This document shows, piece by piece, positions 7,328 through 9,483 of a stretch of 64,000 bases of DNA. This DNA is from Sphingomonas jeddahensis (GTDB lineage: Bacteria > Pseudomonadota > Alphaproteobacteria > Sphingomonadales > Sphingomonadaceae), in assembly GCF_001981525.1 (NCBI RefSeq), contig NZ_MPSB01000001.1:186001-250000 (forward strand). Direction: 5' to 3'. Numbering within the stretch: position 1 is the first letter of the stretch; each line of letters starts with the position of its first letter. The position numbers and the translations under genes are program-made. The notes under the pieces were generated by a model, which was not told the DNA's origin, did no database searches, and saw nothing but the letters and a program-made list of their open reading frames with translations.

Positions 7328-8263
7328 ATGCGTGCGTTCATCTTCCCCGGACAAGGCAGCCAAGCCGTCGGCATGGGCCAGGCGCTTGCCGCATCGAGCG
7401 CGGCAGCGCGCGAAGTGTTCGGCGAGGTGGACGAGGCGCTTGGACAGAACCTGTTCCGACTGATGGTCGAGGGGCCAGCGGACGAACTGACGCTTACTGA
7501 AAATGCGCAAGCAGCGATCATGGCCAATGCCGTTGCCACCTTGCGCGTGCTGGAGCGGGAAGGCGGCGTGCGGCTGGCCGACAAGTCCGATTTCGTCGCT
7601 GGGCACAGCCTGGGCGAATATAGCGCCCTGTGCGCGGCGGGGGCGATCGACCTCACCACCACGGCGCGGCTGCTGAAGCTGCGCGGGCAGGCGATGCAGG
7701 CGGCGGTGCCGGTGGGCGAGGGCAGCATGGCGGCGCTGCTCGGCGCGGATCTCGACAAGGCGCAGGCGATCGCGGCGGCGGCGGCCGAGGGCGAGGTATG
7801 CACCGTCGCCAATGACAACGATCCCTCGCAGGTGGTGATTTCGGGCGCGAAGGCCGCGATCGATCGCGCGATCTCGATCGCCAAGGATCACGGGGCTAAG
7901 CGCGCTGTTGCGCTGCCGGTGTCCGCGCCGTTCCACTGCCCGCTGATGCAGCCGGCGGCGGACGCGATGGAAAAGGCGCTGGCGGACGCGCGCGTCTCGG
8001 CGCCGCTGGTGCCCGTCTATGCCAATGTCATTGCCGCGCCGGCGAGCGACCCCGACACGATCCGCCGACTGCTGGTGGAGCAGGTGACGGGCATGGTGCG
8101 CTGGCGCGAATCGGTGCTGGCGATGGTGGAGGCGGGGGTGACCGAGTTCGTCGAGTTCGGCGGCAAGGTGTTGACCCCGATGGTCAAGCGCATCGCGCCG
8201 GATGCGAATGCGGTGAGCGTGGTTTCGATGGACGACATCGAGGGATTGTTGAAGACGTTGTAA
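7328..8263 (+). CDS. fabD: Malonyl-CoA:ACP transacylase
   Basis: Transfers malonate from CoA to acyl carrier protein to supply extender units for type II fatty acid synthesis. The protein is 311 aa. Motifs: GQGSQ at the N-terminus, nucleophile S94 in GHSLGEY, the catalytic His in SAPFHCPLM, and a C-terminal PMVKRI segment. It opens the cluster fabD-(GxxExxY gene)-fabG-acpP-fabF. A GGAGAGG ribosome site precedes the ATG. Confidence 0.96.
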   Translation: MRAFIFPGQGSQAVGMGQALAASSAAAREVFGEVDEALGQNLFRLMVEGPADELTLTENAQAAIMANAVATLRVLEREGGVRLADKSDFVAGHSLGEYSALCAAGAIDLTTTARLLKLRGQAMQAAVPVGEGSMAALLGADLDKAQAIAAAAAEGEVCTVANDNDPSQVVISGAKAAIDRAISIAKDHGAKRAVALPVSAPFHCPLMQPAADAMEKALADARVSAPLVPVYANVIAAPASDPDTIRRLLVEQVTGMVRWRESVLAMVEAGVTEFVEFGGKVLTPMVKRIAPDANAVSVVSMDDIEGLLKTL

Positions 8264-8265
8264 TT

Positions 8266-8718
8266 GGTTCTCACAGGGAGCGCAGAGGGCACAGAGAGGG
8301 CGCGATGAAGGATATCGATGCGATCAGCGGCGATGTCCTTGATCTATCAATCAGACTCCATCGTGATCTGGGTGCCGGGCTTCTTGAAAGCGTCTACGAG
8401 ACGGTTCTTGCCGAGTGGCTGGCGCGACGAGGATATAGGATCGCGCGCCAGCGCGCGATCGACATCACCTTTGACGGCATGCATATCGAAAGCGCCTTCC
8501 GGATTGATTTGTTGGTGGAAGAACGCGTGATTATTGAGATCAAATCGGTCGACCGCTTGCTCCCGGTTCATTCGAAGCAGATCCTGACCTACATGCGCCT
8601 GACCGGCCAACCGTTGGGTCTCCTGATCAACTTCGCAGGCGCGACGCTGAAGGAAGGATTCCGGCGGTTCGTCAATAGTCCGACCGTCTCTGCGTCCTCT
8701 GCGCTCTCTGTGAGAACC
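8266..8718. mobile_element. Putative inverted-repeat cassette carrying a GxxExxY gene
   Basis: Arms at 8266-8299 and 8685-8718 are inverted copies matching at 30 of 34 positions (GGTTCTCACAG.GAGCGCAGAGG...). They begin three bases after the fabD stop and end 24 bases before fabG, so they delimit a unit of about 450 bp with one gene inside. The left arm supplies the AGAGAGGG ribosome-binding-like tract for that gene, and the right arm encodes its last dozen residues. No target-site duplication is obvious. Reading this as a mobile or formerly mobile cassette is inference. Confidence 0.55.
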
Positions 8719-8724
8719 CGATAA
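8305..8724 (+). CDS. GxxExxY-family protein with RecB-like nuclease motifs
   Basis: A 139-aa protein. It has the family signature GAGLLESVYE (G25, E28, Y31), then a pattern expected of the PD-(D/E)XK nuclease fold: D68 in FRIDLLVEE, E78-x-K80 in IIEIKS, and Q92-x3-Y96 in KQILTY, which matches the QxxxY motif of RecB-type nucleases. GxxExxY proteins are widespread and scattered in bacteria but their function is not established. All presumed catalytic residues are present, so it may be an active nuclease. The last residues (SPTVSASSALSVRTR) are encoded by the right-hand inverted repeat and so are probably not part of the fold. It interrupts the otherwise conserved fabD-fabG junction. Confidence 0.8.
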   Translation: MKDIDAISGDVLDLSIRLHRDLGAGLLESVYETVLAEWLARRGYRIARQRAIDITFDGMHIESAFRIDLLVEERVIIEIKSVDRLLPVHSKQILTYMRLTGQPLGLLINFAGATLKEGFRRFVNSPTVSASSALSVRTR

Positions 8725-8742: not shown

Positions 8743-9483
8743 ATGTTCGACCTCACAGGCATGACCGCGCTGGTCACGGGCGCGTCCGGCGGGATCGGTT
8801 CGGCGATCGCGCAGGCGCTGGCGGGGCAGGGGGCTCGGTTGGCGGTGTCCGGATCTAATGCCGAGAAGCTGGCCGCTTTTCGTGATCAACTGGGCGGCGA
8901 TCATGTCGCGGTGCCCGCGAACCTGTCCGACGCGGCGTCGGTGGATGGACTGGTGCCGGCGGCGGTTGAGGCGCTGGGCGGGCGGATCGATATTCTTATC
9001 AACAATGCCGGCGTCACGCGCGACAATCTGGCGATGCGGATGAAGGATGAGGAGTGGGATCAAGTGATCCGTGTTAACCTCGAAGCCGCGTTCCGCCTGA
9101 TCCGCGCGGCTGCCAAGCCGATGATGAAGCAGCGTTTCGGCCGCGTGATCTCGATCACGTCGGTGGTCGGGCAGACCGGCAATCCCGGCCAGGCCAATTA
9201 TGCCGCGTCGAAGGCCGGCCTAGTCGGCATGTCCAAGGCCCTTGCGCAGGAGCTCGCCAGTCGCAACATCACAGTGAATTGCGTGGCGCCCGGGTTTATC
9301 CGATCGGCAATGACCGATGTGCTGCCGGACGCGCAGAAAGCTGCGCTGCTGACCAAAATCCCGGCGGGCGATCTGGGGACCGGCGAAGACATCGGTGCAG
9401 CGGTCGTTTATCTCGCATCGCGCGAGGCCGGCTATGTCACCGGCCAGACGCTGCACGTCAACGGCGGCATGGCCATGATTTAA
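8743..9483 (+). CDS. fabG: 3-oxoacyl-ACP reductase
   Basis: NADPH-dependent reduction of 3-oxoacyl-ACP to 3-hydroxyacyl-ACP. It is a 246-aa short-chain dehydrogenase: nucleotide-binding GASGGIG near residue 12, NNAG near residue 86, and the catalytic Ser-Tyr-Lys with YAASKAG at about residues 151-157. The C-terminal VTGQTLHVNGGMAMI is characteristic of FabG. A strong AGGAG lies upstream, beyond the right arm of the cassette, so fabG has its own ribosome site. It is followed by acpP. Confidence 0.96.
   Translation: MFDLTGMTALVTGASGGIGSAIAQALAGQGARLAVSGSNAEKLAAFRDQLGGDHVAVPANLSDAASVDGLVPAAVEALGGRIDILINNAGVTRDNLAMRMKDEEWDQVIRVNLEAAFRLIRAAAKPMMKQRFGRVISITSVVGQTGNPGQANYAASKAGLVGMSKALAQELASRNITVNCVAPGFIRSAMTDVLPDAQKAALLTKIPAGDLGTGEDIGAAVVYLASREAGYVTGQTLHVNGGMAMI

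Follow-up and report, generated by a model that had tools for sequence, protein, structure and literature searches.

The closest described counterpart of the locus studied here is the REPIN-RAYT system, which the consulted sections of PMC3116915 present as an enzyme gene of low copy number that passes on mainly by vertical descent and is flanked by a repeat, with gene-less inverted doublets elsewhere and with repeats that are tied to enzyme lineages. The gene at our locus encodes a GxxExxY protein. The open literature, a scope that leaves aside most subscription journals and all preprints, holds no account linking GxxExxY or PDDEXK_3 proteins to inverted repeats, nor any that reports the arm strings described below. 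The consulted portions of open-literature accounts of GxxExxY make no mention of repeats, and the inverted repeats in the consulted portion of PMC1189080 concern RmuC. The occurrence of arms at many relatives in several phyla, together with gene-less elements, suggests a widespread and apparently undescribed element-spreading system.

A GxxExxY gene between inverted arms

The window, a stretch of 64,000 nucleotides from Sphingomonas jeddahensis that was analysed as a whole, contains the following features:

7328–8263, + strand: fabD, the upstream neighbour
8266–8300, + strand: left arm of tandem heptamer-like units, from inverted-repeat comparison; holds the ribosome-binding stretch of the gene
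8305–8724, + strand: GxxExxY gene, 139 aa, ATG start, from the ORF, profile matches, residues and model
8684–8718, − strand: right arm, the inverted copy of the left arm; encodes C-terminal residues of the GxxExxY ORF
8743–9483, + strand: fabG, the downstream neighbour

All three genes lie on the + strand. The names fabD and fabG were given in the original prediction and are consistent with the annotated locus of S. parapaucimobilis. The prediction of inverted arms around a single 139-aa gene was borne out: the arms measure 35 nt each, are 89% complementary and are separated by 383 nt. The ORF likewise agrees with the proposed roles of the two arms, since the left arm, with the ribosome-binding tract, stops immediately 5' of the ATG and the right arm lies inside the reading frame, where it is translated as the C-terminus.

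Arms were scored per locus by aligning the upstream flank to the reverse complement of the downstream flank. The window pair scores 25.0; when family flanks were shuffled 2000 times, the 99th percentile was 13 and the highest score 15.5. Under the same scoring, a value of at least 15 was reached by none of 26 fabD loci and by 2 of 400 and 3 of 285 random segments. Because laxer limits pass more random segments (9/400 at a limit of 13, 38/285 at a limit of 12), we relied on the limit of 15. Chance pairing of the arms is ruled out by the shuffles and by the three control sets of real sequence.

The window protein matches TIGR04256 with 121.7 bits (cut-off 35) and PF13366 (PDDEXK_3) with 123 bits (cut-off 22). 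These two were its sole matches in a profile search at E values up to 0.01, with no Y1/HUH, recombinase or transposase family among them. The predicted nuclease pattern D68, E78-x-K80 and Q92-x3-Y96, a D-ExK-QxxxY motif that we read as a Cas4/RecB-like nuclease signature, holds up in alignments of 48 and 34 rows, where D68, E78, K80 and Y96 are invariant and Q92 is at least 90% conserved. The invariant residues suggest that the protein may be an active nuclease.

In the AlphaFold2 model (pLDDT 88.6, pTM 0.84), the predicted fold of the protein is PD-(D/E)XK, and the D, the ExK and the fold core on which membership rests are all present. Foldseek returned SSO0001 (4ic1), which we take to be Cas4, as the top match with an E value of 1.1e-3; no match lay below 0.001. 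A second structure aligner superimposed the model on 4ic1 with Z 9.3 over 107 residues at 4.1 Å, and on the Hjc resolvase 1gef with Z 7.0 over 86 residues at 3.4 Å, where a Z below 8 may reflect merely a common arrangement. Restriction-endonuclease-like proteins, Hjc resolvases and exonucleases are among the structure matches. By sequence, solved structures yielded no relative of the window protein at E values up to 1. Models of defence systems gave weak matches alone, to RT-associated PDDEXK and Cas4, and there was no match at E 1e-5 among 50,697 phage records. A Cas4-type iron-sulphur site requires a cysteine cluster; because the 139-aa translation contains no cysteine, the window protein has no such site.

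Arms around GxxExxY genes and the history of the fabD-fabG copy

Across 199 genomes of the window's family, TIGR04256 was found at 58 places in 40 genomes, with one to eight copies per gene-bearing genome. One place, in G017, fell below the cut-off and was left out, giving 57 loci. Inverted arms score at least 15 at 51 of the 57 loci and at least 12 at 54, the weak pairs being those of L037, L034 and L020 (12, 14 and 14.5). Arms are absent at L041, which lies at a contig end, and at both genes of G153 (L064 and L070). In the protein tree described below, the armless L064 groups with two armed copies of G108.

A diverse set was formed from the best 80 of at least 571 relatives across phyla, 77 of them with usable flanks. 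Among these 77 loci, 53 score at least 15; 58 beat all 100 shuffles and 19 do not. According to the record titles, this sample of the best 80 of at least 571 covers Bacteroidota, Planctomycetota, Chloroflexota, Verrucomicrobiota, Cyanobacteria, Acidobacteria and Ignavibacteria groups as well as two archaea, with arms at L157 (Methanosarcinales) and none at L153 (Methanothrix). Bracketing by arms, which the original prediction raised as a possible constant of GxxExxY genes, is thus usual in both sets and extends to nearly all family loci, but it is not universal.

Plasmid copies from eight records are divided. The flanks of four (Sphingomonas, Bacteroides, Bernardetia and Gemmatirosa) form arms that outscore 300 shuffles, and the other four (Prevotella, Persicobacter, Fusobacteria and Treponema) lack such arms. 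The Gemmatirosa plasmid (L117) carries a GxxExxY copy with a broken frame and long heptamer arms. At L119 (Fusobacteria) and L118 (Prevotella) there are no inverted heptamer arms; judged by eye, similar stretches lie on both sides in direct orientation.

The arms consist of tandem CRCNRAG heptamers, whose spacing, judged by eye, is 8 nt in most arms of the family and varies elsewhere. In the diverse set (best 80 of at least 571), the density of heptamer pairs is 12.25 per kb (+) within 100 nt upstream of the gene, compared with 0.16 at 500 nt or more, and 12.72 per kb (−) within 100 nt downstream, compared with 0.14. The family set gives 14.0 upstream (+) and 15.8 downstream (−) per kb versus 0.03 and 0.02 at 500 nt or more. 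Heptamer pairs stand on both sides in inverted arrangement at 44 of 77 diverse loci (best 80 of at least 571) and 47 of 56 family loci; the reversed orientation is seen at 6 diverse loci of the same sample and at 0 family loci. A reversed control pattern also gains matches inside the arms (13 and 7, 12 and 15) because it partly fits the same repeats.

Left and right arms were compared in a test with equal windows, in which arms were not chosen beforehand. The left arm finds its strict best match in the right arm of the same locus at 30 of 56 family loci and 21 of 77 diverse loci (best 80 of at least 571), where about one is expected, and at 8 of 20 fabD-fabG loci, again with about one expected. 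At the other 12 fabD-fabG loci, the right arm of another locus matches the left arm equally well or better. An earlier contrast of arm identity within and between loci (92% versus 60%) was discarded as biased, the arms having been picked to match, and was replaced by the equal-window test. Within the window's genus, the arms of three fabD-fabG copies all differ from one another, and in each copy left and right match. Left-right matching suggests that the two arms share a function and that both are replaced or converted.

The fabD gene was found in 197 of the 199 family genomes. A GxxExxY gene lies between fabD and fabG at 23 loci, namely 20 of the 57 family loci, that of S. parapaucimobilis, and those of G420 and G472 of the same genus. 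The original prediction had proposed comparing this junction in relatives that lack the gene, and the comparison did reveal junctions without the cassette. Among the 30 best fabD loci, four hold the cassette (G000, G027, G168 and G149), nine have a junction of 2–14 nt (G017, G127, G118, G050, G071, G091, G055, G177 and G035), and two (G185, and G155 of the window's genus) show, by eye, a right-arm scar without the gene. The remaining loci hold other sequence, with 2 of the 30 left unsorted. The target duplication that had also been envisaged was not clearly seen at the short-element sites compared below. Nor does the gene behave as an ancient armless core gene at this place: the fabD-fabG loci have arms, albeit weak ones at L037.

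Nuclease divergence tracks FabD divergence (Mantel r 0.52, p 2e-4). A tree of 60 proteins, built on few columns and with 22 open forks, places all 23 fabD-fabG copies in one clade of 31 (SH-aLRT 97), and the fabD-fabG label changes 4 times on the tree versus 18.6–18.8 times in shuffles. Within this clade, the cassette sits at three other places: of the other eight members, six adjoin one and the same gene, one adjoins a dnaN-like gene, presumably dnaN, and one a FAD oxidoreductase gene. We take the gene beside the six (L021, L022, L027, L040, L043 and L052) to be carboxynorspermidine dehydrogenase and the gene on the other side in five of them to be a decarboxylase gene; L052 ends there. Beside these probable polyamine-synthesis genes, the six loci form a second common home of the cassette.

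Because its copies form one old clade with divergence tracking that of fabD, and because two relatives that lack the gene at this junction keep arm scars, as left by loss, the fabD-fabG copy is old and not a recent hop. Since eight clade members sit elsewhere, the cassette seems to change place rarely, in a direction that we infer. The original suggestion of a small mobile element therefore stands in part. Mobile character is well supported, because arms are usual, gene-less elements occur in the same genome and several sites are occupied within one clade, but it does not extend to a recent hop into the fabD-fabG junction. Turnover seems to be more frequent among the short gene-less elements.

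Gene-less arm elements and their sites

The source genome (G000, 3.11 Mb) contains one GxxExxY gene by profile search and five inverted pairs of the gene's arm core, one around the gene itself and four short pairs of 130–173 bp. A second arm type, TTCACGCGAAGNNGCGAAG, gives 38 matches with up to 2 mismatches, mostly in inverted pairs, versus 3 for the reversed control. The genome holds at least 16 short gene-less elements. The 16 inspected span 140–449 bp between outer arms, and under a strict test 11 of them are nested, with an outer arm pair surrounding a second, inner pair and its short core; this count leaves out L075, which ties with its best shuffle. The outer arm type belongs to no gene within G000.

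Matches to the arm pattern CRCNNAGNCRCNNAGNCRCNNAG were tallied across these 199 family genomes, with two arms subtracted per gene. Extra arms are present in 27 of 40 genomes with the gene versus 26 of 159 without it (Fisher 8e-10, kinship ignored), with medians of 4.5 and 0, respectively; one gene-less genome holds 27 arms. G108, with 8 genes, has 172 arms and 1 control match. Many of the 30 arms listed out of these 172 form hairpins of ~75 bp, and some lie between inverted GC-rich palindromes. At the level of the phylum, a count of the stricter CRCNRAG form in 398 genomes, which includes the gene's own arms and ignores kinship, finds arms in 40 of 65 genomes with the gene versus 25 of 333 without (p 4e-21). 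Within this set the values are 6/7 versus 3/12 for the window's family (p 0.02) and 4/13 versus 8/292 for other families (p 8e-4); for family f38 the association is not significant (30/45 versus 14/29, p 0.15). Pure tandem arrays of CGCTAAGC lie at G539:C23:227220-227314 and G499:C21:74155-74201, and the arm counts of these two genomes are inflated because of them.

Gene and short elements share arms in at least two genomes. In G042, the left arm run of the gene is CACAAAGACACAAAGACACGAAG (23 nt). Of the four short elements inspected there, L300 and L303 carry the exact gene arm run, L302 is one letter off and L301 has another outer arm. For 108 listed arms from nine genomes, mean similarity is higher to the gene arms of the own genome than to those of other genomes in 8 of 9, by a modest margin; the best match is to the own gene arms for merely 1 of 15 in G186, 1 of 10 in G079 and 2 of 10 in G420. 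Arms in G186, G001, G095 and G165 also stand back to back (minus then plus, ~38–48 nt apart), besides plus-minus pairs.

The short elements might alternatively be MITEs moved by an unrelated transposase, with the GxxExxY gene caught between arms long ago and carried as cargo only. In keeping with such an origin, arms persist in 26 of the 159 family genomes that lack the gene, no gene in G000 has its outer arm type, and many arms elsewhere poorly match the gene arms of their own genome. This origin is nevertheless improbable, given that arms with the same heptamer occur at most sampled genes (best 80 of at least 571) in several phyla and at hardly any control. Capture as cargo would need to have happened repeatedly, each time involving this gene family and this heptamer, and left and right arms remain matched per locus beyond chance.

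Joined flanks of five G000 elements were compared with six genomes of the genus, and those of three G042 elements with 60 genomes of G042's genus. From their protein sequences, we take the flanking genes to be probable ruvC, ruvA, glyQ and glyS. At one and the same intergenic site, a short element can be found in one species and missing from another. The ruvC-ruvA site (15 rows) holds heptamer elements in G042, G627 and G600, and measures 8, 8 and 13 nt in G633, G637 and G593; in the other rows it measures 25–75 nt in five and contains an unrelated inverted repeat in four. G608, with flanks 93–98% identical, shares the L303 element and has a 148-nt gap at L300. At the glyQ-glyS site, heptamer elements of different types are found in G000 and G420 and none in G517, with a small hairpin in G155 and another inverted repeat in G091. 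In G432 (L294), this site holds an ORF with a PF04480 (DUF559) match within inverted repeats of its own. Neither a clear case of target-site duplication nor an exact insertion point was found at the sites compared, where flank identity is 71–99%.

Some element-free L303 sites (L325, L327, L328 and L338) hold TTTCGCACAA, which is like one arm end and could be a scar or a preferred target; the 25-nt site of G601 holds GGTTTCACGC. The 8–13 nt sites of G633, G637 and G593 contain no arm-like word.

A homing-like drive, in which the nuclease cuts sites that lack a complete pair of arms and the element is then copied in by host recombination, would involve no strand transfer by the protein. A single small nuclease in which no transposase domain was found, the lack of visible target duplication and the words just described at L303 sites and in G601 are consistent with it. 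The short sites without an arm-like word fit it poorly, and copying by homology leaves entry at unrelated sites unexplained, so that we regard this drive as conceivable but doubtful.

The arms could also be regulatory or structural sites, such as an operator, an mRNA stem hiding the ribosome-binding site or a terminator, that serve an immobile, domesticated repair or defence nuclease. The left arm does hold a Shine-Dalgarno stretch and, once transcribed, might base-pair with the right arm, and the position by the fab genes is old. However, gene-less copies, presence or absence between species and nesting are not expected of a private operator, related cassettes lie at several sites within one clade, and no known RNA element was matched in Rfam for six loci. 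We consider such a purely local role quite unlikely.

Proposed mechanism and relation to known systems

The explanation that we favour, and hold to be probable, is a REPIN-RAYT-like repeat system that employs a PD-(D/E)XK nuclease, with the cassette as the enzyme-bearing copy, its gene mostly inherited and its arms spread as short elements. The GxxExxY protein would recognise its own arms, that is, the inverted tandem CRCNRAG, and cut or nick them. Recognition would concern the paired arms, probably when extruded or single-stranded, with cleavage at their base. The freed or copied hairpin could then enter other intergenic sites, by preference the loops of inverted repeats, as nesting may indicate. 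Gene-less arm pairs of ~75–450 bp would thereby be multiplied in trans into intergenic sites, often within other inverted repeats, and the gene itself would pass mostly vertically and move only rarely together with its arms. We infer arm binding, cutting and entry, and that these drive the copying.

A second nuclease family, DUF559 (PF04480), is present in 172 of the 199 family genomes. Thirty of its loci were fetched (L342–L371), and 25 of them have inverted arms by a shuffle test, two of the 25 weakly. Hairpins of the form CCYTCNCCC-N-GGGNGARGG occur on at least one side at 21 of the 30 loci and on both sides at 16. These hairpins resemble the intrastrand-triplex motif given in the consulted part of PMC4666352, with the exact consensus at 2 of 30 loci and a relaxed form at 10 of 30; the off-gene background is 1 exact and 2 relaxed matches in 44.8 kb. 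The open literature holds nothing on DUF559 with an inverted repeat.

We tentatively propose a broader view, which is possible rather than probable. A stand-alone PD-(D/E)XK nuclease, found in several phyla and some archaea, could move its own miniature elements via CRCNRAG, a heptamer kept across phyla, DUF559 could run a parallel system on GC-rich hairpin arms, and nuclease-driven repeats could form a general class beside RAYT-driven REPINs. Under the favoured explanation itself, a widely annotated family of no known function gains a concrete, testable substrate, and the intergenic repeats of several phyla a candidate enzyme. If that explanation is right, short mobile repeats of bacteria can arise in at least one way independent of transposases, and an inverted repeat together with a nuclease gene would be a signature worth scanning for.

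When comparing the cassette with IS elements and MITEs, the terminal inverted repeats, the one coding copy and the short non-coding copies with similar ends are shared. Unlike in IS elements, the coding copy here matches no known family of recombinases or transposases, such copies are few in number and old, and comparison of flanks that are 71–99% identical showed no clear target duplication. With Cas4/RecB-like PD-(D/E)XK nucleases and Hjc resolvases, the modelled protein appears to share the fold and the D-ExK-QxxxY residues, whereas it differs from Cas4 in lacking cysteine. As a member of the GxxExxY family (TIGR04256/PF13366), it adds to that family the arms, a feature that we did not find described in the open literature.

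The differences from REPIN-RAYT concern both the enzyme and the repeat. Whereas the REPIN-RAYT enzyme is a Y1/HUH transposase, the enzyme here is a PD-(D/E)XK nuclease, and whereas REPs are single palindromes, the arms here are direct heptamer runs that pair with each other. REPs carry GTAG/GGAG tags. Both systems combine inverted doublets with the same repeat beside a gene that is low-copy and mainly vertical. Overall, the cassette is like REPIN-RAYT in its old low-copy gene, its adjoining arms, the short inverted pairs elsewhere and the arm types that vary from lineage to lineage.
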